A DNA stretch of 64,000 bases from Streptomyces sp. SID11385 (GTDB lineage: Bacteria > Actinomycetota > Actinomycetes > Streptomycetales > Streptomycetaceae). The number at the start of each line of letters is the position of its first letter. The first letter of the stretch is position 1. The notes beneath the pieces are model-generated. The model saw only the letters and a program-made list of their open reading frames with translations. It was not told the DNA's origin and searched no databases. The stretch is from the NCBI RefSeq assembly GCF_010548245.1, contig NZ_JAAGLR010001122.1, forward strand, positions 1 through 64,000. Direction: 5' to 3'. Both the position numbers and the translations under genes were made by a program. Below are positions 32,464 through 62,294 of the stretch, piece by piece.

Positions 32464-33744
32464 TCAGTCGCTCAGGTCCTGCTCGGTCAGCCCGCCGTCC
32501 CGGGCCAGTCGCTCCAGCCGGTGCACCACCCGGCCCAGCGGGGGACGCTGCGCGTTCTCCTGCTCCAGCGCGGCCGCCGCCGCCCGCGGTTCCGGGTCAC
32601 CGACGATCCGGGCGACCGCGCGGTGGATGTCCTCGGCGGTGGCCTCGAGTCCCGCGAGCGCCACGCCGGAACCGCCCCGGGAGAACCTGCGACCGATCTC
32701 GACGCCGTCGTCCGTCAGGCCCAATGCCAGCTGGGGGACGCCCAGCCCGGTCATCATCGGGTTGACGCTGCCCTGGTGGATCAGGGCGTCACAGCCGGGC
32801 AGCAGCAGACGCAGCGGGAAATCCCGCAGCACGCGCACCGATCCGGGCATCGGGCCGAGCGCCTCGGCCTGCTCCGCACTCGCGGTGAGCAGCAGCTCCG
32901 CACCGGTCGCCAGCACCGCGTCCACCGCGTGCCGCAGCACGGGTGCCTCGGTGCCGAAGATGTTCCGCGCCGAGTTGCTCCACACCAGGCACACCCGGGT
33001 ACGAGGCGCGGGTTCCAGCAGCCACGGTTCCTGGTGGCCGGGCCCGTTGTAGGGCACGTAGCGGACGGGCAGCGTCAGCGCGTTCCCGTGCGGCGGCGCG
33101 ATGCTCCCCGGCGTCGGGTCGATGGTGTACTCCACGGCGCCGCGGCCCGCGCCGGCGGGACCCGGGGCGGACTGGCCCGGCGGGGTGGTCCCCAGGGGTG
33201 CGACGCCATGGCGCTCGAAGGCGCCGGTGGGGTCCGCCAGGGCCGCCTCCTGGCTGCCGAACATCCCCGGGGAGTGGAAAACGGCCGGCACACCCGCCAC
33301 TCTGGCGGCCAGCACTCCCTCCGGCGTCATGAGGTCGTGCACCACCAGATCGGGACGCCAGACGCGAGCGAAAGCCGCCGCCGCGTCGCAGTTGCGGCCC
33401 AGCACCGCGTGGTGCGCGGCTCTGATCCGGGGTTCCTGCACCGCCACGTCGAACTCGGCGAGGGACTTCACCGGCGCGCCCGTGAGCGGGTGCAGCGGCG
33501 GCGGGCCGGTGAACGTCCCGGGACTGCGCACCGCCTCGGCGTACCGGGCGAGCCGCTCCAGCCGCATGGTGTCGAAGTCCTCCAGCACCGGTGCCGGCAC
33601 CAGGCCCGCACCGCCCAGAGCGCCCGCCTGAGACGGCGGACAGGCCACCCGCACCTCGTGACCGGCCGCCTGGAGTGCCCAACCGAGCGGTATCAGGCTG
33701 AAGTAGACGCCCTTCCAGCCCGTCACCGTGAACAGCACACGCAT
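32464..33744 (-). CDS. glycosyltransferase GT-3
   Basis: 426-residue antibiotic GT-B glycosyltransferase. RVLFTVTGWKGVYFSLIPLGWALQAAGHEV opens the protein; VRYVPYNGPG marks the linker (about 233). The donor loop is DALIHQGSVNPMMTGLGVPQLAL, with Gln-Gly-Ser in place of the usual His-Gly-Gly, a variant shared in part with GT-4. In an operon with the multicopper oxidase and divergent from GT-4. The promoter has phased heptamers on its strand. Transfers a deoxyhexose; acceptor unknown. Confidence 0.9.
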   Translation of the reverse strand: MRVLFTVTGWKGVYFSLIPLGWALQAAGHEVRVACPPSQAGALGGAGLVPAPVLEDFDTMRLERLARYAEAVRSPGTFTGPPPLHPLTGAPVKSLAEFDVAVQEPRIRAAHHAVLGRNCDAAAAFARVWRPDLVVHDLMTPEGVLAARVAGVPAVFHSPGMFGSQEAALADPTGAFERHGVAPLGTTPPGQSAPGPAGAGRGAVEYTIDPTPGSIAPPHGNALTLPVRYVPYNGPGHQEPWLLEPAPRTRVCLVWSNSARNIFGTEAPVLRHAVDAVLATGAELLLTASAEQAEALGPMPGSVRVLRDFPLRLLLPGCDALIHQGSVNPMMTGLGVPQLALGLTDDGVEIGRRFSRGGSGVALAGLEATAEDIHRAVARIVGDPEPRAAAAALEQENAQRPPLGRVVHRLERLARDGGLTEQDLSD

Positions 33745-33806
33745 CTCGTCTCCGTCCGACCGCTCCCACGTGTGCCAGGGAGGCTACGAGTGGCCGGTAG
33801 AGCCGC

Positions 33807-33836
33807 GTTGGAGCGGGGACTTGAGGGATTCTCGAA
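33807..33836 (-). promoter_or_regulatory. SARP-type heptamers upstream of GT-3/oxidase operon
   Basis: - strand: TTCGAGA (33836-33830) and CTCAAGT (33825-33819) are 11 bp apart, followed by a one-base-shifted CTCCAAC (33813-33807). They end about 63 bp upstream of the GT-3 ATG. Confidence 0.5.
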
Positions 33837-33886
33837 TGCGCGGTCCGACCCTGGTCCCCGTACACCAGAGCGGGAGGAGAGCGCGA

Positions 33887-35179
33887 ATGCCGGACAGGGA
33901 CCGTCGTCGACGCGTGTTGTTCGCCGCGTCGGACTGGCCGGGGCACCACTTCTGCATGGTGCCTCTGGCCTGGGCCATGCAGGCAGCCGGCCACGACGTG
34001 GCAGTGGCCTGCCCGCCGGGGCGGGCGGCCTCGCTCCAGGCGGCCGGGCTGATCCCGGCACCGGTCCTCTCCGCCGTCGACATGGTGACGACGGCGCGGA
34101 TGTTCACGTATCTCGCCGCCGTCAACGGCGAGCAGCCGGGGACGATGCCGCTGCACCCCTACACCGGCCGGCCCGTGCGCGGGCTCGCCGAGTTCGATGT
34201 CGTCGCGGAGCTGCCGGCCTTCCAGGAACGCTCCCACGAGATGCTGCGCCGCAGCTTCGACGGCATGGTCGCCTTCGCCCGTGCCTGGCGGCCGGACCTC
34301 GTGCTGCACGATCTGACCGCGCCGGAGGGCGCACTCGCCGCGGAACTGCTGCACGTGCCCTCGGTCTACCACCCGCCGGGGCTGTTCGGCACCGCTGAGA
34401 CGGAACCGGGGGTGGACCTCGGGGACGGGGACCCCTCGGGTTCCTTCCCGCGCTACGGGCTCCCTCGCTGGAACACCGGCCACGTGCGCTACGTCGTGGA
34501 TCCCTCACCGGCCACGATCCGCCCGCCGCACACGGACGCCCTGTTCATGGGCGTCCGCTACATCCCCTACAACGGCGCCGGCGGGATTCCCGAGGACCTC
34601 TCCCGGCCGTCCGATCGGCCCCGGGTCTGCGTGCTGTGGGGCCGGTCCGCCGCCTTCGACGACACGGGCCTCCCGGCGCTGCGCTCGGCTCTGGAGGCCG
34701 TACTCGACCAGGGTGCCGAGGTGCTGCTCGCCACGAGCGGCGAGCAGCACGACGTCGCGGCGAGGCTGCCCCCGCGGATCCGCGTCGTGCACGACCTGCC
34801 GCTCCGGCTGCTGCTCGCCCACAGCCGCGCGCTGATCCATCACGGCAGCGTCAACGCCCTGCTCACGGCGGCCGCGCTGGGTGTTCCCCAGCTCGCCCTG
34901 CCACGTACCGCGGACACCGAGGTCGTCAGCGCGCGAATGACGGCCACCGGTGCCGTCAGATCGCTGCCGGTCCGAAAGGCGGATCCCGGCGAAGTGGGCG
35001 CGGCCGTGGCGGAACTGCTGGCTGACGGGCCGCACCGGCAGGCGGCCGGGGAGCTGCGCACGGTGATCGCCGCCCAGCCCAGCCCCGCCGAACTGGTGCG
35101 CCCGCTGGAGCTGTTGGCCGCACGGGGCGGGCTGGACAAGGCTGGTCTCGACGCGGCGCGGGGAAACTCACCGCGGTGA
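33887..35179 (+). CDS. glycosyltransferase GT-4
   Basis: 430-residue GT-B glycosyltransferase: RVLFAASDWPGHHFCMVPLAWAMQAAGHDV at the start, MGVRYIPYNGAG in the linker (about 223), and the donor loop RALIHHGSVNALLTAAALGVPQLALP, with Ser replacing the second Gly of the HHGG motif, as in GT-3. The ATG follows GGAGGAG. Closest in style to GT-3, from which it is divergent, so the pair may have arisen by inverted duplication. Its stop overlaps the convergent GT-5 gene by 12 nt. Confidence 0.9.
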   Translation: MPDRDRRRRVLFAASDWPGHHFCMVPLAWAMQAAGHDVAVACPPGRAASLQAAGLIPAPVLSAVDMVTTARMFTYLAAVNGEQPGTMPLHPYTGRPVRGLAEFDVVAELPAFQERSHEMLRRSFDGMVAFARAWRPDLVLHDLTAPEGALAAELLHVPSVYHPPGLFGTAETEPGVDLGDGDPSGSFPRYGLPRWNTGHVRYVVDPSPATIRPPHTDALFMGVRYIPYNGAGGIPEDLSRPSDRPRVCVLWGRSAAFDDTGLPALRSALEAVLDQGAEVLLATSGEQHDVAARLPPRIRVVHDLPLRLLLAHSRALIHHGSVNALLTAAALGVPQLALPRTADTEVVSARMTATGAVRSLPVRKADPGEVGAAVAELLADGPHRQAAGELRTVIAAQPSPAELVRPLELLAARGGLDKAGLDAARGNSPR

Positions 35180-36433
35180 GGCGAGCTCTCCCGCGGGCGC
35201 CGATGCCCACCGGGCGCAGACCTCCGCCGGCGTCGGCATCGCGTCCCGTTCGGCCCGCACGGCGGCGACGGCCGCGCGGTAGCGGCCGTCGCCGAGCACC
35301 GAGAGCAGGGCGTCCCGTACGGCGCCGCCGTCGGCCTCCGGGTCGACGACGACACCCGCGCCCGCCTGTTCCACCCGGTAGGCGATCTCCGTGTGCGGTG
35401 GCGACTGCGGCAGGATCACCTGCGGAACACCGGCGTGCACGGCCGTCATGGCCGTTCCCGCGCCGCCGTGGTGGATCACGGCGTCGCAGCTCGGCAACAG
35501 CTGGTGGAAGGGCGGGGACTCGGCGAAGCGGGCTCCTCCCGGAAGACCGGCCGCGAGGTCCCGCTGGTCCGCGGTCCCCGCCAGCACGACCTCGATGTCC
35601 AGGCCGGCCAACGGCCCCACGAACGCGCGCATCGCGTCGGCGGCGGTCTCCTTGTCGAAGCCACCGAGTGCCAGCCCGCTCGTCACGCAGACACGGGGCC
35701 GCTGCGAACGCGTGCGGAGCCACGGCGGCAGCGCACCCGACCCGTTGTAGGGCACGTAGCGCATCGGGATCTCCGTCTGTCCGAGGGACGCCGGAACCGT
35801 CATGGCCGGTGGGGCCAGCTGGATCATGCGATCCGAGCAGGGCCTCGGGGGGAGGCCGAAACGTGCGAAGAGCGCGGTGTACTCCGGGCGCAAGCCGCCG
35901 GTGCGGCCCGTCCGTTCGGTGTGGGCCATGGTCGCCACCTCCCACCCGTGCGACACGTGCGGCACGCCGACCGCCGCGGCGGCGACCGGCCCGGCGTGGC
36001 AGAGGACATCGCACACCACCACGTCCGGACGCCAGTGGCGGGCGAAGGCGACCAGGTCCTCCACCATGCCCGCGGCCTTGTGCAGTTGCTTGCCCGCGGT
36101 GAATTCCAGTACGGCGCTCTGCGTCTCGTCCAGCAGCTCGGGCCGGGATGTCCAGCCCGCGGGCCACGGCCGGTCGCTGCCCCAGTCGCGGGAGAAGCGC
36201 GGCGGCCCCTTGCGCACCGCCTCGGTGGCGTCGCCGACCGGAACGGCCGGCAGTCCGGTCCGGTGGACGGCCGGCAGGCAGTAGGGCGGGGCGGCGACCA
36301 CGACCTCCATGCCCGCTGCCCGGCAGGCCCAGGCGGTGGGCACCATGGGGAAGAGGTGTCCCGCGGCGGACCAGGTCGCGAACAGCGCCCGCCGGGGGCG
36401 ACCGGCTGCCGGACGTCCGCGCTCACCGGCCAC
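35168..36433 (-). CDS. glycosyltransferase GT-5
   Basis: 421-residue GT-B glycosyltransferase with RALFATWSAAGHLFPMVPTAWACRAAG at the start, MRYVPYNGSGALPPWL in the linker, and an intact donor loop DAVIHHGGAGTAMTAVHAGVPQVILP. The start is a GTG at 36433 with GGAGGT 5 nt upstream; this overlaps the end of the upstream short-chain dehydrogenase gene by 11 nt, so translation is coupled. Of the seven it is one of three with the fully canonical donor motif (with GT-6 and GT-7). Confidence 0.92.
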   Translation of the reverse strand: MAGERGRPAAGRPRRALFATWSAAGHLFPMVPTAWACRAAGMEVVVAAPPYCLPAVHRTGLPAVPVGDATEAVRKGPPRFSRDWGSDRPWPAGWTSRPELLDETQSAVLEFTAGKQLHKAAGMVEDLVAFARHWRPDVVVCDVLCHAGPVAAAAVGVPHVSHGWEVATMAHTERTGRTGGLRPEYTALFARFGLPPRPCSDRMIQLAPPAMTVPASLGQTEIPMRYVPYNGSGALPPWLRTRSQRPRVCVTSGLALGGFDKETAADAMRAFVGPLAGLDIEVVLAGTADQRDLAAGLPGGARFAESPPFHQLLPSCDAVIHHGGAGTAMTAVHAGVPQVILPQSPPHTEIAYRVEQAGAGVVVDPEADGGAVRDALLSVLGDGRYRAAVAAVRAERDAMPTPAEVCARWASAPAGELASPR

Positions 36434-38486: not shown

Positions 38487-39917
38487 TCAGTGCAGGGCGT
38501 GCAGCAGTGCGATCAGCGTCCGGGCCTGCATGTTCAGGTAGTAGCTGTGCTCCAGCAGCCGCTGCACCTGCGCCACTGTGACCCAGGTGAACGCGGGGGG
38601 CACGTCGAGCGGGAAGTCCTCACCGACATCGATGACCAGGTACCGGTTCTCCGCGTCCAGGAAGCGGGCCCCCTCCTCGCACATCCTCACCTCGCAACGG
38701 ACCCGGTCCCCGGGCATCGCGAGGGCCGCGTCCAGGAAGTGCGGCCGCGGCCACCCGGGGCGGCCCTCGTGGTTGCTGGGTGTGCACTGCACCGTCGGGC
38801 GGAACTCGGCGACGTCCAGCGATCCCGCCTCCACCCGGGCTTCGAGCAGGACGTGCAGTACGCCGTCGATGCTGCGGGTGAAGAGCGCGGACAGACCACC
38901 GGGCACGGGGGCCAGGAGCGGCTGCGTCCAGTGGGCGACCTCCCTGCTGCGCGCCGTCACCTCGGCGCCGACGACGGCGAAGTAACGGCCGTCCGGACGG
39001 GATATCTCCTCGTCCAGCCGCTGCCATCCGGCTACTTCGGACAGCGGAACGGTGCGCTGTCCCACCTCGTGCAGGGCCTTGACGGCGGTCAGCCGGCTGA
39101 TGACCTCGGGCAGCCGGTGCCGGCTGGCGGCCTGTTCGTCCAGGGACTTCAGCAGCGCCGCCCGGAAACGCGACTGCCGGTGGCCGGCTTCCCCTTCTTC
39201 CGGCGCCCGCTCCGGCAGGCAGGCCAGGACCGAGCAGGTCTCCATGCTCAGCAGGTGGTCGCGGGACATCAGGCGTCGCAGCTGCCCCAGCGTGAGCCAG
39301 CAGAAGTCACCTCCGGACGGGATGTCGGCGGTGGACTCGACCACCAGGTGCCGGTTGCGCTTGCGCAGGAACCACGCGCTGCGCTCGGACTGGAGGTTGT
39401 CCAGGAGCACCTGCTCGGGAGGGGGGGCGAGGAAGTACTCGACATAGGGGATGGACCGCCCGTTGTGGACGCCGGTGTAGTTGCTGCGGGTGGCCTGGAC
39501 CGTGGGCGAGATCCGAACCGCTCCCGGGTTGCCCGGTTCCGCCTTGGCCTGCACCAGGAAGTGCAGGACGCCGGCCAGCTCGCGGACCACGAAGCCGAGG
39601 ATGCCGATCTCGCGCTGGACCAGGACGGGCTGCTCCCACGGCGGGCTGTCCCCGTCCGGCTGGACGCGCAGGCCCTCGACCGAGAAGAAGCGGCCGCTGC
39701 GGTGTGTCAGCGCCCCGGTGTCCGGGTCGAATCCCCAGCCCGACATCCGGGAGAAGGGGATGCGGGTCACCACGAAACCGGCCCGTCGGCGCTTTTGCGC
39801 GAACCACTGCTCGAAGCGGTGGTTGGGGGTCACGGTGCTGTCCGTCGTCCGCGCGGAGAGGGCGAACCGCCGGGCGGCCTCCTCCCGGCTCGCCGTTTCC
39901 GGGGCGGAACTGCGCAT
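38487..39917 (-). CDS. NDP-hexose 2,3-dehydratase (first copy)
   Basis: 476 residues of the PF03559 family, made of two homologous halves (about 30-240 and 255-470), each with a TVQATRSNYTGVH or TVQCTPSNHEG stretch that aligns with the other. It eliminates water from C-2/C-3 of NDP-4-keto-6-deoxyglucose, the committed step to 2-deoxysugars; the unstable product is then reduced by the 3-ketoreductase. The ATG follows GGGAGG. It is monocistronic and far from the other sugar genes, which may mean it serves a separate branch. Confidence 0.94.
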   Translation of the reverse strand: MRSSAPETASREEAARRFALSARTTDSTVTPNHRFEQWFAQKRRRAGFVVTRIPFSRMSGWGFDPDTGALTHRSGRFFSVEGLRVQPDGDSPPWEQPVLVQREIGILGFVVRELAGVLHFLVQAKAEPGNPGAVRISPTVQATRSNYTGVHNGRSIPYVEYFLAPPPEQVLLDNLQSERSAWFLRKRNRHLVVESTADIPSGGDFCWLTLGQLRRLMSRDHLLSMETCSVLACLPERAPEEGEAGHRQSRFRAALLKSLDEQAASRHRLPEVISRLTAVKALHEVGQRTVPLSEVAGWQRLDEEISRPDGRYFAVVGAEVTARSREVAHWTQPLLAPVPGGLSALFTRSIDGVLHVLLEARVEAGSLDVAEFRPTVQCTPSNHEGRPGWPRPHFLDAALAMPGDRVRCEVRMCEEGARFLDAENRYLVIDVGEDFPLDVPPAFTWVTVAQVQRLLEHSYYLNMQARTLIALLHALH

Positions 39918-43558: not shown

Positions 43559-44551
43559 ATGACATACGCGGTGCGAGCGGAGGGACTGCGGAAACGCTAC
43601 GGCGCTGTGACCGCCCTCGACGGTGTCGATCTTGAGGTGTCGCAGGGCACCGTGCTGGGCCTGCTCGGCCCCAACGGGGCGGGCAAGACGACCACCATCC
43701 GGATCCTGTCCACCCTGCTGCGCCCGGACTCCGGGAGGGCGTCCGTCGGCGGCTTCGACGTCGTCCGCCAGGCCGACCAGGTGCGCCGGCTGATCGCGCT
43801 GACCGGTCAGTACGCGGCCCTGGACGAACACCTGACCGGCGCCGAGAACCTTGAACTCTTCGGCAAGCTGCTGGAACTGGGTAAGCGGGAGGCTCGGCGC
43901 CGGGCGGCGGGGCTGCTGGCGGACTTCGGTCTGGAGGAGGCCGCCGACCGCCCGGCGAAGACCTACTCGGGCGGGATGCGCCGCCGCCTCGACCTGGCAG
44001 CCGGTCTGGTCGGCCGGCCCAGCGTGCTCTTCCTCGACGAGCCCACCACCGGCCTGGACCCGGAGAGCCGGCTGGCGCTGTGGCAGGCCGTCCGGCGGCT
44101 GGTCACCGAGGGGATGACGGTGGTGCTCACCACCCAGTACATGGAGGAGGCGGACCAGCTCGCGGACGACCTCGTCGTGGTCGCGGGCGGCGCCGTCGCG
44201 GCCCGTGGCACGGCTGCGGCGCTCAAGGCGAAGGTGGGTGACCGCACCCTCGTCCTACGCCCCGAACGGCCCGGGAAGCTGAACGAGTTGCTGGTGGCGG
44301 CCGCGCAGGCGGCGCCCGCCGCTCGCACCGAGGGCGAGGAGCGGGTCGTGATCCCGTCCGCCGACGGCGCCCTGATGAATGCGGTGCTCGACCGGGTCAC
44401 CGAGGCCGGCCTGACGCTGGACGAGGCGGAGTTCCGCAGGCCCAGCCTGGACGAGGTCTTCCTCGCAGTGGTCGGCCGGACCGTCGGTCAGGCGCAGCAG
44501 GACACGGAAGCGACCAGGCGCGACACGGAGCCGGAGGTGGACGCAGCATGA
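43559..44551 (+). CDS. ABC exporter ATPase (DrrA-like)
   Basis: 330 residues. Walker A LLGPNGAGKTTTIRIL (about 35), Q-loop TGQYAALDEHLTG, signature YSGGMRRRLDLAAGL (about 140), Walker B VLFLDEPTTGLDPESRL, switch His replaced by the TTQYMEEADQL region typical of drug-resistance DrrA proteins, and a C-terminal regulatory tail (about 230-330). Energises export of the glycosylated product and so gives self-resistance. The stop overlaps the permease ATG (ATGA). Confidence 0.95.
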   Translation: MTYAVRAEGLRKRYGAVTALDGVDLEVSQGTVLGLLGPNGAGKTTTIRILSTLLRPDSGRASVGGFDVVRQADQVRRLIALTGQYAALDEHLTGAENLELFGKLLELGKREARRRAAGLLADFGLEEAADRPAKTYSGGMRRRLDLAAGLVGRPSVLFLDEPTTGLDPESRLALWQAVRRLVTEGMTVVLTTQYMEEADQLADDLVVVAGGAVAARGTAAALKAKVGDRTLVLRPERPGKLNELLVAAAQAAPAARTEGEERVVIPSADGALMNAVLDRVTEAGLTLDEAEFRRPSLDEVFLAVVGRTVGQAQQDTEATRRDTEPEVDAA

Positions 44552-45390
44552 ACGCGACAACGGAGGAAACCGGGACGCCCCGCACGAGGCCCGAGGCGCT
44601 GCCCCTGCACGCCGAGGCCCGGCGGATGACCCCGGCCCGGCTCGTCCGGCACACCGGGGCGCTGACCTGGCGGCTCCTGGTCCAGCTCAAGCACAACCCG
44701 GAACCGCTGTTCCTGCTCGGTGCGCAGCCGATCCTCTTCCTGGTGCTGATCACCTACATCTACGGCGGGCAGTTCGCCGGATCGACCGGCGCCTACCTTC
44801 AGTACGCGCTGCCCGGCGTGATGGTCTACAACGCCGTGTTCGCCACGATGAGTTCGGCGCCCTCCCTCTTCGCCGACATCGGCGGCGGCGTCTTCGACCG
44901 CTTCCGGAGCATGCCGATCGCCCGTTCCGCCCCGCTGATCGCCCGGGTCCTCGCCGACCTGATGCTGCAGGCCATCGCGCTGGTCTTCCTTCTGGCCGTC
45001 GGCTTCGCCATGGGCTTCCGTATCGAGACCGGCGTGCTCCACCTCCTCTGCGGGGTTGTGCTGATCGCGCTGTTCTCCGTCGCGCTGGCCTGGCTCCCGA
45101 TGCTGTTGGCGCTGAGCATCAAGTCGGGCGACAGCGTCCAGATGATCCTGTTCGTCACGACCTTCCCGCTCAGCTTCATCAGCGGCGCGTTCGCCAGGGT
45201 GGACACCATGCCCGGCTGGCTCCAAGCCCTGGTCAAGGTCAACCCGGTGACGTGGCTGGCGCAGGCGGAGCGCGCCCTGCTGACCGGCGGCCCGGTCTTC
45301 CGCCCGGTCCTCTACACCCTGGTCTGCGCTGTCCTCCTCGCCGCGGTCTTCGCTCCCCTCGCCGTCCGCGCCTTCCGCCGCCGCGATTGA
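44548..45390 (+). CDS. ABC exporter permease (DrrB-like, ABC-2 type)
   Basis: 280 residues with about six membrane segments: FLLGAQPILFLVLITYIYGG (about 55), LPGVMVYNAVFATM, LMLQAIALVFLLAVGFAMGF, LLCGVVLIALFSVALAWLPM, MILFVTTFPLSFISGAF and the C-terminal VLYTLVCAVLLAAVFAPLAV. ABC-2 permease motif around FDRFRSMPIARSAPL. It pairs with the upstream ATPase through a 4-nt stop-start overlap. Exports the antibiotic. Confidence 0.94.
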   Translation: MNATTEETGTPRTRPEALPLHAEARRMTPARLVRHTGALTWRLLVQLKHNPEPLFLLGAQPILFLVLITYIYGGQFAGSTGAYLQYALPGVMVYNAVFATMSSAPSLFADIGGGVFDRFRSMPIARSAPLIARVLADLMLQAIALVFLLAVGFAMGFRIETGVLHLLCGVVLIALFSVALAWLPMLLALSIKSGDSVQMILFVTTFPLSFISGAFARVDTMPGWLQALVKVNPVTWLAQAERALLTGGPVFRPVLYTLVCAVLLAAVFAPLAVRAFRRRD

Positions 45391-45602: not shown

Positions 45603-48600
45603 ATGACTGGAACCGGAACCGACGCGGGTGCCCCCCGGGGCGACACCGTCCACGGGTTGTTCGCCTCGTGCGCCGAGCGGTGGCCGAGCGCCGTCGCCGT
45701 GGTGCACGGGGAGCGCAGGGTCTCCTACGCGGAATTGGAGGCGGCCGCCGAGGATTTCGCGGCCGGGCTGGAGGAGGCCGGGGTAGGGCCCGGGGACCGG
45801 GTGCCGGTGCTCATGCCGCGTACCGTCGAGTTCCTCGTCGTGCTGCTCGCGGTACTCAAGCGCGGCGCGGCGTACGCGGCTTTGGACGTGCGCTGGCCGC
45901 GGTCGAGGATCGAGGAACTGCTCGCCCGGCTGGACGCCCCGCTGCTGGTGACCTCGGAGGACGGCGGCTGGGCGGTACCGGCCGTCTCCGCGCCGGTGCC
46001 GGGCGGGCACGCCGGGCGGCGGACCACCCCGATCGAGGTCCGGGCGGACGACCCCTGCGCCGTGTTCTTCACCTCGGGCTCCTCGGGCCGGCCGAAGGCT
46101 GCCGTCTCCCCCCACAGCGGAACGGTCAGGCTGTTCGCGGACTGCGACTTCGCCGATCTGGGCCCCGGCAACGCCATGCCGCAGCTCGCTCCCGTCCCCT
46201 GGGACGGCTTCACCCTGGACTGCTGGAGCGTGCTGCTCAACGGCGGGACCTCGGTCTTCGTCGACGAGTTGCTGGTCCCGCGCACCCTGCGCGAACTGAT
46301 CGCCCGCGAGGGCGTGACGGGGATCTTCCTCACCCGGTCCGTCTTCGACCTGATCATGGACGAGGACGCGGACGCGTTCACCGGTCTGAAGTGGTTGCTC
46401 ACAGGAGGCGAGGCGGCGTCCTCCGCGACCATGCGCCGCTTCCTGGAACGCCATCCGGGCACCGTGCTGCGCAATGTCTACGGTCCGGTGGAGTGCACCG
46501 CACTGGCCACCGAGCGCCGGGTGACCGCCGCCGACTGCGAGGACCCGGGCGGTGTCCCGCTCGGCCGCGCGCTCAACGGCACCTCCGTCCATGTGCTCGA
46601 CGGCCGCCGTGCGTGCGCTCCTGGCGAGGTCGGGGAGATATGCCTGTCGGGAAGCGGCCTCGTGCACGGGTACCTCGGCGACCCCGACGCCACCGCTGCC
46701 GCCTTCGAGGAGCTGGAACTGGACGGCGCGGTGCGCCGGATCTACCGCACCGGGGACCGCGGTCGGCTCTCCGCCCAGGGGGTGCTGCACTTCGCCGGGC
46801 GCGCCGACCGGCAGTTCAAGGTGCGGGGCCACCGCATCGAACCGGCCGAGATCGAGCAGGCCGCGCGGCAGGTGGACGGGGTCCGTGAAGCCGTGGCCCT
46901 GCCGATTCCCGCGGCTGGTGGCGGACACGTCGGCACCGTGCTGTTCCACACCCGCACCGGGCCGTCCAGGGAGGACGTGAAGGCGGTGCTGGCGCGCCGG
47001 CTCCCGTCCCATCTCGTCCCCGACAGGGTGGTCGAACTGGAGTCGATGCCCCAGTTGTCCAACGCCAAGACGGATCTGAGAGCGCTGGCGGAACGGGTGC
47101 CGACGCTGTCCGGCAGCGGCACTGCGGCCGGAAGCGGTGGTGCGGGGGCTGGTGCCGACGCCGGGACGGAGCGGGCGGTCGCGGAGGTCTTCGCCGCGGT
47201 CCTGGGGCTCGAACAGGTGCCGGTCGACGTCCCGTTCATCGAGCTGGGCGGTGACTCCCTGGGGGTGGCGAGGCTCTGCGCGAGGCTGGACGAGCGGCTC
47301 GGCGTGGCCGTTCCCCCTTCGCGGGTCTTCGCCGCGCAGACCGTGTCGCGGCTCGCCGCCTGGCTGGACACGCTGCCCGCGGACACGCCGGAGACCGGAG
47401 CGGCGGACGTGCGGCGGGTGCCGCTCCCGACGCACCAGGCCCTTTACCTCTGGGAGGGGGTCCATCCCGACGCCGATGTCGCCTACACCTGCCCGATGGC
47501 GTGGGAGATCGACGGGGACCTGGACATCGACGCGCTGACCGCGGCACTGCTGGACGTCCAGGAACGCCACGAAGCCCTGCGCTCCCGGTACCTCCGTGAG
47601 GAGGGGCCGGTGGCGGAGGTGCTGTCCGAGGCGCCCGCCCCGGAATTCTATTTGCTGCCTCGGGCGGCGGACGGGAAAAGCGCCAGGGCCGCCTTGGAGG
47701 ATGTGCTGTTCACCCCGCTCTCCCTCGCCCGGGGCCGCATCTGGCGCTGCGCCGCCGTCCCGCTGCCGGACGGGCGTGGGCACCTGTTCGGCCTCGTCGT
47801 GCACCACGTGGCGTTCGACCAGGGGGCGGAGTCGGTGCTGGCCGGCGACCTCGGCACCGCTTACGCGGCCCGGCGAACCGGTGCCGCACCGCACTTCGCC
47901 TCGCCTGCCGTGACGCTCGCTGAGCTGGCACAGGAGTACCGGCGGCGGGAGGCCCTCGTCGATCGATCGACGCAACTTGCTTACTGGGACCAGGAGTTGG
48001 CCGACCTTCCGGAACTCAATCTGCCGCAGCGGCTGGAGAGCGACGCGGTGGTCGGGCCGCGCGCGTCCCTCGTACGCGAGGTGGACGCGGCCGACCTGGC
48101 TCAGTGGGAGGCGGACGCCCGGCGCCGTGGATCGACCCGGCTGGCCTTCCTGGCCACCGCCTTCGGCGAGGTGCTCGCCGCACTGTCCGGTTGCCCGGAC
48201 TTCGCCGTACTGGTTCCGGTGAGCCGGCGGAACAGCCGCGCCGATGCCACGGTCGCCTGCCGGGTGGACACCATGTGCCTGCGGCTGCGGCTCGCCGGGC
48301 AGGAGCCGCTCGAACAGGTCGGCGCTGCCGTCCGCGAGGCCCTCGCCGCTCAGGACGTGCCGTTCACGGAGGCGGCCCGCAGCCTGTTCGCCTCCGGTCG
48401 GCATCACACCGTACTCGACCTGCCGGTGCTGATGATCGAGGACGAGCCGCTGCCGCGGCTGTCGCTGGAGAGCTGCCGCACCACCTTCTTCCGGCCGGAC
48501 AACCCCACCACCATGACCCAACTGGAGCTGCGCGTCTGCCGGGCCGAGGGCGGCGGCCTCCAGGTGGTCTGCACCGTGTGGACCGACCGGTTCACCGCTG

Positions 48601-48683
48601 ATTTCGCCGCCGAGGTGGCCGACCGGTTCATCGGTGTCCTGCGCCGAGGGCCTGCCGCCCTGCGGCGCCCTGAACGACCATGA
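45603..48683 (+). CDS. A-PCP-C non-ribosomal peptide synthetase
   Basis: 1026 residues in an unusual order. Adenylation about 15-500 (FFTSGSSGRPKAAVSPH, VYGPVECT, YRTGDRGRL, GRADRQFKVRGHRIEP, A10 Lys in SNAKTDLRAL); carrier about 520-595 with Ser in ELGGDSLGVARL; condensation about 605-1020 with HHxxxD in VVHHVAFDQG. My by-eye specificity residues read D-G-L-F-L-G-V-A-L-K, nearest to the published isoleucine code (DGFFLGVVYK). With C last, the enzyme should pass its own aminoacyl group to a free acceptor such as a sugar or aglycone. First gene of the operon with an SDR, GT-6 and GT-7. No MbtH-like protein seen. Confidence 0.92.
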   Translation: MTGTGTDAGAPRGDTVHGLFASCAERWPSAVAVVHGERRVSYAELEAAAEDFAAGLEEAGVGPGDRVPVLMPRTVEFLVVLLAVLKRGAAYAALDVRWPRSRIEELLARLDAPLLVTSEDGGWAVPAVSAPVPGGHAGRRTTPIEVRADDPCAVFFTSGSSGRPKAAVSPHSGTVRLFADCDFADLGPGNAMPQLAPVPWDGFTLDCWSVLLNGGTSVFVDELLVPRTLRELIAREGVTGIFLTRSVFDLIMDEDADAFTGLKWLLTGGEAASSATMRRFLERHPGTVLRNVYGPVECTALATERRVTAADCEDPGGVPLGRALNGTSVHVLDGRRACAPGEVGEICLSGSGLVHGYLGDPDATAAAFEELELDGAVRRIYRTGDRGRLSAQGVLHFAGRADRQFKVRGHRIEPAEIEQAARQVDGVREAVALPIPAAGGGHVGTVLFHTRTGPSREDVKAVLARRLPSHLVPDRVVELESMPQLSNAKTDLRALAERVPTLSGSGTAAGSGGAGAGADAGTERAVAEVFAAVLGLEQVPVDVPFIELGGDSLGVARLCARLDERLGVAVPPSRVFAAQTVSRLAAWLDTLPADTPETGAADVRRVPLPTHQALYLWEGVHPDADVAYTCPMAWEIDGDLDIDALTAALLDVQERHEALRSRYLREEGPVAEVLSEAPAPEFYLLPRAADGKSARAALEDVLFTPLSLARGRIWRCAAVPLPDGRGHLFGLVVHHVAFDQGAESVLAGDLGTAYAARRTGAAPHFASPAVTLAELAQEYRRREALVDRSTQLAYWDQELADLPELNLPQRLESDAVVGPRASLVREVDAADLAQWEADARRRGSTRLAFLATAFGEVLAALSGCPDFAVLVPVSRRNSRADATVACRVDTMCLRLRLAGQEPLEQVGAAVREALAAQDVPFTEAARSLFASGRHHTVLDLPVLMIEDEPLPRLSLESCRTTFFRPDNPTTMTQLELRVCRAEGGGLQVVCTVWTDRFTADFAAEVADRFIGVLRRGPAALRRPERP

Positions 48684-48694
48684 GAGGGACGCAC

Positions 48695-49447
48695 ATGGGA
48701 AAAATGGATGGAAGGGTCGTACTCGTCTCCGGCGGAGCCAGGGGGCAAGGGGCCGAGCACGCCCGGCTGCTGGTGGCCGAGGGCGCCCGCGTCGTCCTCG
48801 GCGACCTCCTCGACGAGGAGGGCAGGGCGGTCGCCGAGGAACTGGGCGAGCACGCCCGGTTCTGCCACCTCGATGTCCGTCTGCCGCAGGAGTGGGCGCG
48901 GGCGGTGGAGACGGCGCGCGAGGCCTTCGGCGCACTCGACGGCCTCGTCAACAACGCCGGTGTGCTGTCCATCGGCTACGCCGCCGAGATGCCGGTCGAG
49001 GAGTTCCGGCACACCGTTGAGGTCAACCAGGTCGGGACTTTCCTGGGCATGCAAGCCGTCGTCCCCTCGCTGCGCGCGGCCGGCGGGGGAACCATCGTGA
49101 ACGTCTCCTCCACGGCGGGACTGTCCGGGGACCGCGGCCTGATCGCCTACAGCGCGAGCAAGTTCGCCGTCAACGGCATGACCAGGGTCGCGGCCATGGA
49201 GCTGGGTCCCGACCGGATACGGGTGAACTCCGTGTGCCCGGGGGTCATCGCCAGCGACATGACCGAGGGCTTCCGCTCCGACATGATGAGCGCGCTCGCC
49301 GCCCAGCTCCCCCTCGGCCGCTTCGGTTCCGCCGACGAGGTATCCCGTTTGGTGCTCTTCCTCGCCTCGGACGACTCCTCCTACGTCACCGGCACCGAGC
49401 TGGTCGCGGACGGTGGCCGGCTCGCCGGAATCCTGCCGCCCCGATGA
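48695..49447 (+). CDS. short-chain dehydrogenase/reductase (hydroxysteroid-dehydrogenase-like)
   Basis: 250-residue SDR: SGGARGQGAEHARLL loop, NNAGVLSIG, catalytic Ser in VNVSSTAGLSG and Tyr/Lys in AYSASKFAVNG, C-terminal YVTGTELVADGG. The ATG at 48695 is chosen because GAGAGGG lies 6 nt upstream; an ATG at 48680 would overlap the NRPS stop. Its place directly after the NRPS suggests it modifies the amino-acid-derived group or its acceptor, for example oxidising an alcohol. Unproven. Confidence 0.85.
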   Translation: MGKMDGRVVLVSGGARGQGAEHARLLVAEGARVVLGDLLDEEGRAVAEELGEHARFCHLDVRLPQEWARAVETAREAFGALDGLVNNAGVLSIGYAAEMPVEEFRHTVEVNQVGTFLGMQAVVPSLRAAGGGTIVNVSSTAGLSGDRGLIAYSASKFAVNGMTRVAAMELGPDRIRVNSVCPGVIASDMTEGFRSDMMSALAAQLPLGRFGSADEVSRLVLFLASDDSSYVTGTELVADGGRLAGILPPR

Positions 49448-49482: not shown

Positions 49483-50676
49483 ATGCGGGTCCTGATCATG
49501 GCAACTCCGGCGCCCAGCCACTTCACCCCGATGGTGCCGCTGGCCTGGGCACTTCGCGCCGCCGGTCACGAAGTGCTGGTCATGGGCCAGCCGGACATCA
49601 CCGAGCCCGCCGTCACCGCCGGCCTGCCCGCCGTCACCGTGGGAGAGCGCTACGACGCCAACGAAGTGATCGCCTCCAAGCTGGCAGCGGGCAGGCGGCC
49701 GAACCAGAGCGGAAGCGCCCAGGCCGGGCCCGCCAACCCACTGCTTCTCGCCCAGCCCTGGCTGATCCACGCCAAGTACCTGACCCAGCAGTACCTCGCG
49801 CTCGCCCGGGAGTGGCAGCCGGACCTGATCCTCAGCGACCCGCTGGAGTTCAGCGCGGCCGGTATCGGCGGCATCCTCGGCGTCCCCGTCGTCCATCATC
49901 GCTGGGACATCGAACCGCCGGGTGACACCCCGCTGGAGCTGGCGCGCAAGGTACTGGGGGGCCGGATGGCGGCGGCGGGTCTGGACGGCGACATCCCGGA
50001 TCCCGCACTGGTACTTGACTGCGCTCCCCGCAGCATCCGGGGCGCCTTGCCGGACGCCTCAGCGCCGGACCCGGCGCGCTCGCTGCGCTACGTCCCCTAC
50101 AACGGCACCGGCACCGTACCCGCCTGGGCCTCCGAGCGGGTCCGGAAGCGGCGGGCGGTGGTCAGCCTCGGCAGCCTGACAGCGGCGCTGAACGGCGTCC
50201 CGCTGTTCCGCAGTGTGGTGGACGGGCTGGAGAAGCTTCCGGACACGGAGATCGTCGTCACGCTCCCGGCCCGCCACCGGGAGGCGCTCGGCCCCGTGGG
50301 GGCGGACACCCGGGTGGTCGACCCCACTCCGCTCAACCTCTTCCTCGGCTCCTGCGACCTGCTGGTCCACCACGGCGGCACCGGCAGCTCGCTGACGGCC
50401 TGCGCCTTCGGTGTACCGCAGGTGGTGCTGCCGCAGATCGGCAACGAGTCGGTGTGGGCGGCCGGTCTCGCCGATGCGGGAGTGGCCCTCGCCGTCGTCG
50501 ATCCCGACGCCCAGGACGATCCGGGGCGGGTGCACGAGGCCGCGCGAGCCGTGCTCGGCGAACCCGGGTTCGCCGAGCGGGCCCGCGCCGTGGCCGAGGA
50601 GATCGCCGCCCTCCCCTCCCCCGCGGACGTGGTGGCCGACCTCGAAGCGCTCCTCGTTCCAGCGGAAGGGAGGTGA
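49483..50676 (+). CDS. glycosyltransferase GT-6
   Basis: 397-residue GT-B glycosyltransferase. RVLIMATPAPSHFTPMVPLAWALRAAGHEVLVMG at the start, LRYVPYNGTGTVPAW in the linker (about 202), and an intact donor loop DLLVHHGGTGSSLTACAFGVPQVVLP. The ATG at 49483 follows AGGAGAGG; an upstream ATG at 49444 overlaps the SDR stop but lacks a ribosome site. Overlapping frames join it to GT-7, and the two share similar openings (APSH--MVPLAWA), so they are probably tandem duplicates. Confidence 0.93.
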   Translation: MRVLIMATPAPSHFTPMVPLAWALRAAGHEVLVMGQPDITEPAVTAGLPAVTVGERYDANEVIASKLAAGRRPNQSGSAQAGPANPLLLAQPWLIHAKYLTQQYLALAREWQPDLILSDPLEFSAAGIGGILGVPVVHHRWDIEPPGDTPLELARKVLGGRMAAAGLDGDIPDPALVLDCAPRSIRGALPDASAPDPARSLRYVPYNGTGTVPAWASERVRKRRAVVSLGSLTAALNGVPLFRSVVDGLEKLPDTEIVVTLPARHREALGPVGADTRVVDPTPLNLFLGSCDLLVHHGGTGSSLTACAFGVPQVVLPQIGNESVWAAGLADAGVALAVVDPDAQDDPGRVHEAARAVLGEPGFAERARAVAEEIAALPSPADVVADLEALLVPAEGR

Positions 50677-50681
50677 CCCCG

Positions 50682-51902
50682 GTGCGCGTTCTTCTGGTGG
50701 CGCTGGCCCCGAGCCATCTGCTGTGCATGGTGCCGCTGGCGTGGGCGGCCCGTGCCGCCGGGCACGAGGTCGCCGTCGCCGGCAGGGAGCCGGTCGCCGA
50801 GGCCGCCCGGCGAGCCGGTCTGTGCGCCTTCGAGGTGGCCGAGGCCGGTCCGGAAGCCGCCCCGGCCTCCCCTAACCGGGGAGAGGTACGGGCGGAGCCC
50901 GCGTTCGCGGGGATGGCCGCGCTGCTGAGGCGGCGCGGGGACGGCGCGGTACCGGGCCGCTCGTGGGTGGCCGGCTCACATCCGTGGGAGCGACGGGTCG
51001 TGAGCGTGCTCGACGGGTACCTGGCCGCGGCCCGGAGCTGGCGCACCGACCTGATCCTGTGCGACCCCATCGAGTTCACCGGTCTCGTCGTCGGCGGGAT
51101 GCTGGACGTCCCCGTCGTGGTACAGCGCTGGGGCGGTCCCGACTCGCTCAGCTCGGAGGCGATCTCGCGGGCCGGCACGGTCCTCGGTGACCTGTGCGTC
51201 GAGGCCGGCATCGGCGCGCTCCCGGCCCCGGCCCTGACAGTCGATCCGTGCCCACCCAGCCTCCGTTCGCCCGCTGCCGGGCCCGCGAGCCCCATGCGGT
51301 TCGTTCCCTACAACGGGGCGGGGGCACTGCCGGCGTGGAGCCGCGGACGGGACGCGCGTCGCCGGGTCTGCGTCTCCTTCGGCCTGTTCGGCACGCAGGC
51401 CGCCGTGCACGGGGACGAGTTCGTACGGGGTGGCGGGCTGGCCGGGCGGTACCGGACACTCGCCGCCGCCCTGGCCCGACGCCCGGACGTGGAAACCGTC
51501 TTCTCCGTACCGCAGGAGGTACGGGGCGAGCTGGGAGAGCTGCCGGGCCCGGTACGGGTGGCTCCGTGGATACCGCTCGACGCGGCGCTGCGTGCGGGGG
51601 ACCTGGTGATCCACCACGGCGGCATCGGCACCGCGATGACCGCGTGCGTCCGCGGCGCGGTGCAACTGCTGATGCCGCCCCCGCACCCGGTGTTCCTGGA
51701 CTGCGCGACCTCTCTGGCCGCCCGGGGAGTCGGGCGCACGCTGGACGAAACAGAGCAGGAGGACGCGGAGTCGCTCACCCGGACCGTGCACGAGATGCTG
51801 GACTCCGCGGCAGAGGAGGAGCAGGCCCGGGAGCTCGCCACGGAGATCGCCGAACAGCCGTCTCCGGCCGAGGTGATCGCCGATGTCCTCGGCTGCCTCT
51901 GA
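50682..51902 (+). CDS. glycosyltransferase GT-7
   Basis: 406-residue GT-B glycosyltransferase: RVLLVALAPSHLLCMVPLAWAARAAGHEV, linker MRFVPYNGAGALPAWSRG, donor loop DLVIHHGGIGTAMTACVRGAVQLLMP. The GTG at 50682 is 8 nt after GGAGG; the GTG at 50673 overlapping the GT-6 stop is too close to it. Lacks much of the mid-N-terminal variable loop seen in GT-3 and GT-4 and carries a short Arg/Gly-rich stretch near residue 85. Last gene of the NRPS operon, followed by a hairpin. Confidence 0.92.
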   Translation: MRVLLVALAPSHLLCMVPLAWAARAAGHEVAVAGREPVAEAARRAGLCAFEVAEAGPEAAPASPNRGEVRAEPAFAGMAALLRRRGDGAVPGRSWVAGSHPWERRVVSVLDGYLAAARSWRTDLILCDPIEFTGLVVGGMLDVPVVVQRWGGPDSLSSEAISRAGTVLGDLCVEAGIGALPAPALTVDPCPPSLRSPAAGPASPMRFVPYNGAGALPAWSRGRDARRRVCVSFGLFGTQAAVHGDEFVRGGGLAGRYRTLAAALARRPDVETVFSVPQEVRGELGELPGPVRVAPWIPLDAALRAGDLVIHHGGIGTAMTACVRGAVQLLMPPPHPVFLDCATSLAARGVGRTLDETEQEDAESLTRTVHEMLDSAAEEEQARELATEIAEQPSPAEVIADVLGCL

Positions 51903-56188: not shown

Positions 56189-56264
56189 GCGGCACAGCTT
56201 GCAGACGGCGGCTCAAGTCCGGGTCGATGACGGCTCGTGGCATCTCCTCCCCGCCGCCAGCCGC

Positions 56265-56294
56265 CCCGAATCGCTGCGCCCGGGGCGATTCGGG
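56265..56294. promoter_or_regulatory. 10-bp inverted repeat between rmlA and 2,3-dehydratase genes
   Basis: CCCGAATCGC (56265-56274) and GCGATTCGGG (56285-56294) are perfect complements with a 10-nt centre, so the half-sites are about two helical turns apart. This suits a dimeric regulator controlling the divergent sugar genes; it could also be a leader hairpin. Confidence 0.45.
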
Positions 56295-56340
56295 ACGGGT
56301 GCGAGCGGGGCTCAAGCGCCTTCGTCCATCGTTCACGGCC

Positions 56341-57819
56341 ATGGGACCGAAGAACAGTACTGCACCGGTGCACGACAGGACGAAGGCGGGGGACAGCGCT
56401 TCCCCGGCCGGGCGGCTTTGGGATTCCGCATCGGCGTACGACAGTTCCGTCACATCTCTTGCCGATTTCCACAAGTGGTTCGACCAGCAGCGAACGGAAA
56501 GCCACTACGCGGTTGAACGCATTCCCTTGTCGGCGCTCTCCGGCTGGCATTCCGCGCCGGAGAGCGGCGATCTGGTCCACGAGTCCGGCGGCTTCTTCAG
56601 CGTTTCCGGGCTCCGGGTCCGCACCGACTTCGGGCGCCTCCGCCAGTGGACCCAGCCGGTGATCGTGCAGCCGGAGATCGGTCTGCTGGGCCTCCTGGTC
56701 AAGGAGTTCGACGGCATTCCGCACTTCCTGATGCAGGCCAAGATGGAACCGGGGAACCTGAATCTGGTGCAGCTCTCCCCCACGGTGCAGGCCACACGCA
56801 GCAATTTCACGGGCGTGCACCGGGGCCGGGGCGTGTCCTACCTCGAGTACTTCATCGGGCCGCGGCGGGGCACCGTACTGGCCGACTCGCTCCAGTCGGA
56901 ACAGGGCTGGTGGTTCCTGCACAAGGGCAATCGCAACATGGTCGTGGAGACCGCCGAGGAGGTCCCGCTTCGACCGGGCTTCCGCTGGCTGACGTTGCGA
57001 CAACTCGGGGAGCTGTTGCGCGAGGACCACCTGGTGAACATGGACTCGCGCACGGTTCTCGCCACGCTTCCGCTCGGCCCTCCCGGCCCGAGGTCGGCCG
57101 GCGGGGCGGGCGGCGATGCGCTGCGCCACTCCCTGATGCGCTCGCACACCCCCGGGGAAGCCTCCCTGCACAGTTTCCAGGAGGTGCTGACCCTCCTGAC
57201 CGAGGCCCGCAGCCGCTACCGCCTGGAGCAGCGGCAGGTGCCGTTGCGGGAAGTGCTCGACGAGGGCCGGTGGCAACGCACGGACTCCGGGATCGCTCGG
57301 CCGGACGGCAGGTACTTTTCGGTGGTCGGCGTCGACGTGCACGCCCGCCGTCGCGAAGTAGCGCGCTGGTCACAGCCTTTGATCGCCCCGGTGGCGGGCC
57401 TGTCCGGGCTCCTGGTGAAGCGGGTCAACGGCGTGCTGCACGTGTTGCTGCACACCAGGGTGGAGGCGGGCACACTGCGGGTCTGCGAGTTCGCCCCGAC
57501 CGTGCAGTGCTCTCCGGCCCCGCACGGGCAGGACGCCTCGGCGCATCGGTCTCCGTTCCTGGAGCATCTCCTGTCGGCACCGGCCGATCGGGTGCGGTAC
57601 GACACCGAACTCTCCGAGGAGGGCGGTCGCTTCCTGCACGCAGCCACCCGCTACCTCATCGTCGAGGCCGGGGACGAGGTGGCGGTGACCGAGCCCCCGG
57701 ATCACTGCTGGCTCACGCTGCGCCAGGTCGCCGCGCTGCTGCGGCACGGCAACTACCTGAACGTGCAGGCCCGTACCCTCGTCGCCTGCGCCAACCTGGC
57801 CTTGACTGCCCGAAATTGA
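56341..57819 (+). CDS. NDP-hexose 2,3-dehydratase (second copy)
   Basis: 492 residues, two-domain PF03559 enzyme paralogous to that at 38,487: FHKWFDQQRTESHYAVERIPLSALSGW (about 42) matches FEQWFAQK of the other copy, and both halves carry the TVQATRSNFTGVH / TVQCSPAPHG stretch. Same reaction (C-2 deoxygenation). The ATG at 56341 is chosen because the following length before the first motif equals that of the paralogue, although its ribosome site is weak; an ATG at 56227 is possible. Adjacent to rmlA/rmlB, so this may be the main copy. Confidence 0.93.
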   Translation: MGPKNSTAPVHDRTKAGDSASPAGRLWDSASAYDSSVTSLADFHKWFDQQRTESHYAVERIPLSALSGWHSAPESGDLVHESGGFFSVSGLRVRTDFGRLRQWTQPVIVQPEIGLLGLLVKEFDGIPHFLMQAKMEPGNLNLVQLSPTVQATRSNFTGVHRGRGVSYLEYFIGPRRGTVLADSLQSEQGWWFLHKGNRNMVVETAEEVPLRPGFRWLTLRQLGELLREDHLVNMDSRTVLATLPLGPPGPRSAGGAGGDALRHSLMRSHTPGEASLHSFQEVLTLLTEARSRYRLEQRQVPLREVLDEGRWQRTDSGIARPDGRYFSVVGVDVHARRREVARWSQPLIAPVAGLSGLLVKRVNGVLHVLLHTRVEAGTLRVCEFAPTVQCSPAPHGQDASAHRSPFLEHLLSAPADRVRYDTELSEEGGRFLHAATRYLIVEAGDEVAVTEPPDHCWLTLRQVAALLRHGNYLNVQARTLVACANLALTARN

Positions 57820-61520: not shown

Positions 61521-62294
61521 TTGCGCATCATCGACCTGTCGTCGCCGATCGACGCGGCCGGCTGGGAGCCGGACCCGGTCGTGCACGAGACCATGACCCC
61601 CGCCGAGGGCGCCCGTCACATGAGCGAGGAGGTGCGGGAGCACTTCGGTCTGGTCCTCGACCCCGCCGACCTGCCCGGGGGTGAGCTGCTGTCCCTGGAC
61701 ACGCTCACGCTGACCACGCACACCGGCACGCACGTCGACGCGCCGTCGCACTACGGATCGGTCGGGGACTACGGCCCCCCGCGCCACATCGACCGGATGC
61801 CGCTGGACTGGTTCCTGCGCCCCGCCGTGGTGCTGGACATCAGCGACGTCGGTGTCGGCGTGGTCGGGGCGGAACGGGTGCGGCAGGAGCTGGAACGGCT
61901 CGACTACCACGTGCGGCCACTGGACATCGTCTTGTTCCACACCGGCGCCGCCCGGCACGCCGGAACCCCGGCCCTCTTCACCGACTTCACGGGGCTGGAC
62001 GGCTCCGCCGTGGACTATTTGCTGGACCTCGGCGTGCGCGTGATCGGCACCGACGCCTGGAGCCTGGACGCACCGGTCGGCCACATGCTGGAGCGCTACC
62101 GCGAGACGGGCGACCCCTCGGTACTGTGGCCCGCGCACTTCGCCGGCCGCCGCACTGAGTACTGCCAGATCGAACGGCTTGGCCAACTGGACCTCCTGGA
62201 GCGACCGTTCGGCTTCCGTATCTGCTGCTTCCCGGTAAAAGTGGCTGGTGCGGGGGCGGGCTGGACCCGGGCCGTGGCCTTGATGGACGAGTGA
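61521..62294 (+). CDS. PF04199 polyketide cyclase (DpsY/MtmX-like)
   Basis: 257-residue metal-dependent hydrolase-fold cyclase. Motif HTGTHVDAPSHYG (about residue 74) carries the metal-binding His/Asp, with IGTDAWSLD (about 178) and WPAHFAGRR later. In anthracycline and aureolic acid pathways this family helps close the later rings. The TTG start is used because the protein begins RIIDLSSPID at once; the ribosome site is weak. The stop overlaps the thioesterase start (GTGA). Confidence 0.9.
   Translation: MRIIDLSSPIDAAGWEPDPVVHETMTPAEGARHMSEEVREHFGLVLDPADLPGGELLSLDTLTLTTHTGTHVDAPSHYGSVGDYGPPRHIDRMPLDWFLRPAVVLDISDVGVGVVGAERVRQELERLDYHVRPLDIVLFHTGAARHAGTPALFTDFTGLDGSAVDYLLDLGVRVIGTDAWSLDAPVGHMLERYRETGDPSVLWPAHFAGRRTEYCQIERLGQLDLLERPFGFRICCFPVKVAGAGAGWTRAVALMDE

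Follow-up and report, generated by a model that had tools for sequence, protein, structure and literature searches.

A stand-alone A-PCP-C nonribosomal peptide synthetase as a possible amino-acid capping enzyme in an aromatic polyketide glycoside cluster of Streptomyces

What might a short nonribosomal peptide synthetase (NRPS), made of one adenylation (A), one peptidyl carrier (PCP) and one terminal condensation (C) domain, be doing amid the genes of an aromatic polyketide glycoside? The question is raised by a 64,000-nucleotide stretch of Streptomyces sp. SID11385 (hereafter, the window), which takes in positions 1-64000 of a contig 68,245 bases long (NZ_JAAGLR010001122.1) in a draft genome of 7.5 Mb and 1202 contigs. 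Based on sequence comparisons, we give a slightly better than even chance to the hypothesis that this NRPS (45603-48683, + strand) acts on its own to aminoacylate an aromatic polyketide glycoside of the cervimycin/polyketomycin-like kind, replacing a CerJ-type acyl cap. That is, the A domain would convert a probably branched-chain aliphatic L-amino acid to its adenylate, the aminoacyl group would be loaded on the enzyme's own PCP at Ser552, and the C domain (His735) would move it from there onto a deoxysugar or aglycone hydroxyl, yielding an ester. The NRPS would thus take the slot apparently held in sister clusters by a CerJ-like acyltransferase, an AMP ligase and a carrier, and the cluster would therefore have swapped an acyl cap for an amino-acid cap.

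The A-PCP-C protein and its candidate substrate

The A-PCP-C protein is intact, being encoded by an open reading frame of 1026 codons that starts with ATG at 45603 and ends with a stop codon at 48681-48683. The domain order given by the initial annotation was recovered by Pfam, with AMP-binding, PP-binding and Condensation following each other in sequence. The A domain (aa 22-498, 45666-47096; Pfam, alignment and fold) matched AMP-binding at aa 22-358 with 221 bits and AMP-binding_C at aa 416-489 with 22.9 bits, slightly below the cut-off of 24.5, and shows the core motifs FTSGSSGRPK, YGPVE, YRTGD, GRADRQFKVRGHRIEPAEIE and NAKTD. It is followed by the PCP (aa 525-588, 47175-47366; 56 bits, with supporting motif and alignment), which carries LGGDS with Ser552, and by the C domain (aa 624-1014, 47472-48644; 92 bits, with PDB sequence matches and tree), which carries RHEALR, QDVPF and, as aligned, the active-site motif HHVAFD (47802-47819). 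An AlphaFold2 model (mean pLDDT 76, pTM 0.52), of the kind that had been suggested for checking the A domain, was used for domain checks alone; its A-PCP part resembles A-PCP crystal structures such as 4dg9 (Z 43.7, root-mean-square deviation 4.6, 542 residues). The structure alignments cover mainly residues 2-596, and the model therefore says little about the C domain. Taken together, the domain and fold likeness is far beyond chance.

The substrate is less clear-cut. Alignment returned the same pocket code that had been read earlier by hand, DGLFLGVALK (aa 201, 202, 205, 242, 266, 268, 292, 300, 301 and 489), which is identical at 7 of 10 positions to DGFFLGVVYK, a sequence that we take to be an isoleucine code. 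The first Asp of the code, which is expected to be kept for an alpha-amino acid, is conserved. Stand-alone A-PCP-C relatives mostly carry DAxWxGGVFK, presumably a valine-like code, and three changes from this family code in the window (A to G at code position 2, W to F at position 4 and G to V at position 7) approach the presumed isoleucine code. In particular, position 4 is Phe242, whereas Trp occupies it in at least 90% of the aligned A-PCP-C rows; hence, the window A domain does not carry the valine-like code with its near-invariant Trp that characterizes those rows. Phe at this position also occurs in the relatives at L022 and L023 and in Amycolatopsis kin (here and below, L and G numbers denote loci and genomes, respectively). 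In the A-domain tree, the window sequence grouped with A-PCP proteins from Amycolatopsis and from G062 (support 99/96), and these Phe-bearing sisters have an unlike code, DALFGGM(V/I)AK, which would neither support nor exclude isoleucine. Accordingly, the evidence on isoleucine, to which the initial annotation likened the code, is divided: the match and the direction of the three changes point to it, and the well-supported sisters do not. The substrate is probably an aliphatic amino acid; isoleucine is a plausible but unproven candidate, since the nearest A domains have a different code.

Gene company and sister clusters

The location of the NRPS gene suggests a role in glycoside tailoring. 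The gene starts 212 bp past a DrrAB-like ABC transporter pair (43607-45390, +) and has downstream of it, in the same orientation, a short-chain dehydrogenase (SDR; 48680-49447), of which one ATG, at 48680, lies within the stop codon of the NRPS gene (a second ATG, at 48695, has a better ribosome site), and then two EryCIII-like glycosyltransferases (49483-50676 and 50682-51902); the gap before the SDR is at most 11 bp, and the next two gaps are 35 bp and 5 bp. Given the shared strand and the tight gaps, the NRPS very likely forms one operon with these sugar-transfer genes, the two glycosyltransferases being probable members. Further out, the type II polyketide synthase (PKS) glycoside setting recognized previously was borne out by a Pfam scan of 41 of the 52 predicted window proteins, the scope of all window-protein results below. 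These include the ketosynthase (KS), chain length factor (CLF) and acyl carrier protein (ACP), an aromatase/cyclase, a PF04199 cyclase, a thioesterase, an acyl-CoA ligase, ABM and FAD monooxygenases, and three O-methyltransferase-family proteins, along with sugar genes for six EryCIII-like glycosyltransferases, two 2,3-dehydratases and one RfbH-type 3-dehydratase. Sugar genes flank the NRPS on both sides, as do PKS genes.

This gene content also bears on the bond that would be formed. C domains usually form amides, and the acceptor could be an amine on a sugar or on the aglycone rather than a hydroxyl. We regard this alternative as improbable: the DegT-family enzyme at 20644-21942 (-) is not an aminotransferase but an RfbH-type NDP-sugar 3-dehydratase (NCBIfam, 660 bits against a cut-off of 423), that is, an enzyme of 3-deoxygenation toward rhodinose/amicetose-type sugars, and neither an aminotransferase proper nor an amidotransferase was found among the scanned window proteins. 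An ester is preferred over an amide because the scanned part of the window has no amine-forming gene.

To assign the cluster to a type, KS and CLF were of little use: the eleven best CLF neighbours had KS at 69-72% and CLF at 66-70% identity, and only one of them (G207) showed the PF04199 cyclase in the stretch read. Typing by KS/CLF was thus dropped and, since these proteins do not discriminate, the PF04199 cyclase was used as the query for sister clusters. In the genus, 36 of 295 genomes matched at E ≤ 1e-60 (four others than the window's own at 76-79% identity); in the family, 9 of 150 at E ≤ 1e-125 (eight others at 75-79%, one of which, G373, reads 74% elsewhere); and in the class, 4 of 246 at E ≤ 1e-120, none of the three others being newly close (own genome included in all three counts). 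Up to 80 kb were fetched around twelve sister loci, whose cyclases are 74-79% identical to the window's; one stretch (G304) ends at a contig end, leaving eleven with usable flanks. Cyclase, thioesterase, KS, CLF and ACP are common to all twelve, and deoxysugar genes occur in 9 of the 11 usable stretches (not in G014 and G083). The window shares with those clusters that bear CerJ-like genes (below) the core of KS, CLF, ACP, ketoreductase, aromatase, cyclase, thioesterase, ABM monooxygenase, acyl-CoA ligase and SARP, and has the trideoxysugar genes and several glycosyltransferases of the cervimycin/polyketomycin-like type. These features point to a cluster of that type, and an ordinary angucycline cluster was set aside because it is the CerJ-bearing family that comes nearest in cyclase and accessory genes among the sequences compared, which included no angucycline reference.

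It is in the cap genes that the window and its sisters part. A cassette of CerJ-like KASIII, AMP ligase and carrier is present in 6 of the 11 usable sister clusters (G048, G093, G309, G320, G338 and G373). The KASIII of G093 has CerJ as its best PDB match (351 bits vs. 258 for the daunorubicin KASIII), and Pfam bore out the AMP ligase and carrier of this cluster; the five other cassettes have KASIII at 57-71%, ligases at 68-72% and carriers at 50-60% identity to those of G093, and Cys, His and Asp stand at the aligned CerJ triad sites in all six KASIII proteins. In another sister, G418, genes for an anthranilate synthase and a benzoate-CoA-ligase-like protein (369 bits, cut-off 375) are joined by two that encode KASIII-like proteins (38-41%), probably for an anthranilate-type ester cap; this cassette spans L210:14907 to L211:5248. 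In the window's own draft genome, by contrast, a CerJ-like query had no match at E ≤ 1e-5, as opposed to matches in all 11 other genomes searched (in G014, G083, G306 and G319 only outside the cluster). Conversely, the A-PCP-C protein is absent from all twelve fetched sister stretches (that of G304 being cut short), where matches to the NRPS at E ≤ 1e-20 are 29-33% identical and belong to AMP ligases or, in G048, to a separate large NRPS. A wider set of eleven loci with cyclases at 67-71% identity likewise gave no NRPS match at E ≤ 1e-20; two of these loci (G238 and G271) were read over at most 20 kb and had no KS/CLF there, and several are anthracycline-like by gene content. The cervimycin comparison drawn in the initial annotation is thus stronger than it was because CerJ-like genes are found in the sisters and none in the window. 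The window cluster would be a variant of the cervimycin/polyketomycin-like type, in which an A-PCP-C protein of a widespread family was apparently recruited as the cap enzyme.

As for the remaining genes of the window, the minimal PKS lies at 12016-14806 (-; ACP 12016-12276, CLF 12339-13598, KS 13595-14806, the real KS start probably being further upstream than the 14806 end), and the conserved core of the cluster family continues with the acyl-CoA ligase (25746-27290, -), aromatase/cyclase (27331-28236, -), a ketoreductase-like SDR (28396-29091, -) and a SnoaL-like protein (29361-29804, +). The PF04199 cyclase (61521-62294), thioesterase (62291-63178) and ABM monooxygenase (63129-63740) follow each other on the + strand; the cyclase and thioesterase genes, which stand together with KS, CLF and ACP in the twelve sister clusters, are about 47 kb away from the latter in the window, at the other end of the cluster (61521-63740 vs. 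12016-14806). The NDP-hexose 2,3-dehydratases are at 38487-39917 (-) and 56227-57819 (+). Three of the glycosyltransferases fall within 32464-36310 (32464-33588, -; 33914-35179, +; 35168-36310, -), and a further one is at 8176-9396 (-). A multicopper oxidase inside the window cluster (30999-32285, -) has a counterpart listed in none of the twelve sister clusters, and an HsaA-like two-component flavin hydroxylase (15542-16681, -) has a match (49%) listed in one, G304. Finally, in 11 of the 12 sister clusters (not G014), the SARP gene is neighboured by genes for a YcaO protein and for a protein of 227 aa that has no Pfam match; this pair (G093, L186:2301-5407) gave no tblastn match in the window.

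The condensation domain and its acceptor

Stand-alone A-PCP-C proteins are common in the genus: among 199 genus genomes, the window's own included, about 16 of the 198 others have a match that scores above 460 bits and is of A-PCP-C size, as assessed from its span and the open frame. Thirteen aligned relatives are 37-42% identical to the window protein, which shares their architecture and whose C domain falls inside the A-PCP-C clade (support 98/99) in the tree proposed earlier as a check. Since the A domain has its sisters among the Amycolatopsis and G062 A-PCP proteins and the C domain belongs to the A-PCP-C clade, the two halves of the protein may have different histories. A contig scan for named relatives gave 46 loci, with genes read for L076-L078 only, which hold type I PKS-like genes. 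These Amycolatopsis loci and L039 of G062 combine C-A-PCP, A-PCP and a P450-like gene adjoining type I PKS-like genes (C-A-PCP shown by Pfam for L076, the P450 motif seen in L039), and among all sequences it is to their A-PCP protein that the window's A domain is most closely related.

Several relatives have company that would suit a partner in trans. An A or A-PCP protein lies close to the A-PCP-C gene at L032, L033, L035, L038 and L041 (L038 onward covered by motif scan only), which fits carrier-to-carrier condensation. The window protein could, therefore, be the first half of a split dimodular NRPS, its C domain forming a peptide bond with an aminoacyl-PCP encoded elsewhere and the resulting dipeptide unit joining the polyketide or not; other NRPS pieces are indeed present in the window's genome. 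However, the scanned window proteins include no second amino-acid A domain and no carrier other than the ACP of the PKS and the PCP of the NRPS itself, the AMP ligase at 25746 is acyl-CoA-ligase-like with counterparts in the sister clusters, and the NRPS gene is linked to glycosyltransferases instead; we thus consider a split NRPS unlikely. The lack of another carrier among the scanned window proteins makes a free acceptor likely. That a terminal C domain implies donation to a free acceptor, as proposed in the initial annotation, hence probably holds for this locus and is not a general rule, given the A or A-PCP neighbours of the relatives.

Another feature of the relatives is a P450, found near several of them (two by Pfam, others by motif); two A-PCP-C proteins on plasmid records (41% identity) are each beside an annotated P450, with no aromatic KS/CLF match near these plasmid genes. 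Similarly, no KS/CLF matches above 36% identity were listed in the stretches around L005, L006 and L027-L045. A-PCP platforms commonly serve on-carrier modification, and the amino acid may be altered on the PCP, e.g., oxidised or deaminated by the SDR directly downstream or by another enzyme, with the C domain transferring a derived branched hydroxy, keto or malonyl-type acid. This seems rather unlikely here, since no P450 and no aminotransferase proper were found among the scanned window proteins and the SDR alone is not expected to turn an aliphatic aminoacyl group into such an acid. An amino-acid-derived PKS starter unit was also judged unlikely: priming needs no C domain, and the PKS core is shared with clusters that lack this NRPS.

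The C domain itself shows two departures from its family. The residue after HHVAFD is Q (G740Q), a site at which G is found in at least 90% of the family rows aligned; the PCP-C didomain 8fx7, which we take to be fuscachelin FscG, likewise lacks G after HHxxxD. Further, its end branch (1.24) is the longest among 25 C domains, narrowly so, against a median of 0.44. A long branch would fit a changed acceptor. Both departures, together with the absence of the NRPS from all twelve sister stretches, would also fit an unrelated or decaying passenger without a part in the glycoside. We find the latter quite improbable, because the core motifs are intact across 1026 codons, the gene shares strand and tight spacing with the SDR and two glycosyltransferases, and sugar and PKS genes lie to either side.

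Several observations weigh against an aminoacyl cap. The changed residue and the long branch could also mean weakened C-domain function, and the branches of L042 (1.20) and L040 (1.13) almost match that of the window; because of these two relatives, we slightly lowered our confidence in the cap hypothesis and slightly raised it for a split NRPS. The top solved relatives of the C domain, among 34 PDB sequences listed (FUM14 not being one of them), are Txo1 (95 bits) and Txo2 (86), presumably peptide-bond formers, both scoring higher than 4znm (54), which we take to be SgcC5. Acceptor chemistry is not settled by C-domain class, and a hydroxyl of a deoxysugar or the aglycone as the acceptor is suggested by gene company only. 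The position of the NRPS differs from that of the CerJ cassette in the sisters, so that its assignment to the cap slot would be an argument from replacement, not from position; and two sister clusters (G306 and G319) have sugar genes with no KASIII in the stretch, i.e., a cap is not universal. In addition, KS (70-74%) and CLF (61-68%) of the sister clusters are no closer to the window's than those of other aromatic clusters (69-72% and 66-70%), and kinship consequently rests on the cyclase, shared accessory genes and sugar genes. Last, with the genome in 1202 contigs, the window may not hold every relevant gene, and others, for an acceptor module or an aminosugar, might sit outside it.

Nonetheless, we favor the hypothesis that the NRPS adds an aminoacyl cap. 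A broader proposition, to which we would give a somewhat less than even chance, is that a C domain that once worked from carrier to carrier has become an aminoacyl transferase acting on a deoxysugar (or aglycone) hydroxyl and that these clusters swap cap modules across enzyme classes (KASIII/malonyl, KASIII/anthranilate and NRPS/amino acid). The activity of an aromatic glycoside antibiotic can depend on the caps that its deoxysugars bear. If the hypothesis is true, the compact A-PCP-C enzyme would provide, in a single protein, a means of attaching basic, chiral groups to such glycosides, its C domain would be a case for how an acceptor changes from carrier-bound to free, and the cluster family would offer a natural series (malonyl type, anthranilate type and aminoacyl) for testing cap exchange.

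Comparison with known systems

Among the systems compared, the A-PCP-C family (e.g., on NZ_CP108163.1 and NZ_CP108701.1) has the same architecture and size as the window protein, with C domains of the same clade, but differs in its mostly DAxWxGGVFK-like codes, the frequent P450 or A domain nearby and the lack of an aromatic KS/CLF close by. The A domain of the window also matches that of AstC (8www) at 27-30% identity; AstC is, we presume, an ansatrienin enzyme that loads an amino acid attached to a polyketide hydroxyl, and its pathway is of the type I ansamycin kind (a literature search for AstC returned nothing). The polyketomycin and dutomycin clusters are of the same general class as the window cluster, and the polyketomycin cap is an aryl acid. 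Likeness to these two and to cervimycin is judged by published description and by the sister clusters, rather than by their own sequences.

Cervimycin is described as a type II PKS glycoside with six deoxyhexoses, whose 40-kb cluster (cvm, BGC0001439) holds five glycosyltransferase genes, a SARP and two asparagine-unit genes, with 41% of the cvm genes resembling the polyketomycin and 39% the dutomycin cluster (PMC5797532). The available part of another source (PMC11237698) has nothing on dimethylmalonate, valine or a gene cluster. The window cluster is alike in being a type II PKS glycoside cluster with several glycosyltransferases and in having sisters with CerJ-like proteins; it differs in lacking a CerJ relative, in having six rather than five glycosyltransferase genes and in its A-PCP-C NRPS. 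As regards the asparagine-unit genes, no amidotransferase family was found among the 41 of 52 window proteins scanned. CerJ is reported to esterify a cervimycin sugar hydroxyl with dimethylmalonyl (PMC4425429); a second source has the hydroxyl of a sugar receiving a malonyl unit from CerJ (PMC9573744). Ester formation of this sort is not foreign to condensation enzymes: SgcC5 is counted among ester-forming condensation-like enzymes (PMC4425429), and SgcC5 (C-1027) and FUM14 (fumonisin) are given as ester-forming C domains (PMC10212144). The chemistry of these two enzymes is that proposed for the window; SgcC5 is free-standing and FUM14 bidomain, whereas the window C domain would carry it out as the terminal part of an A-PCP-C protein.

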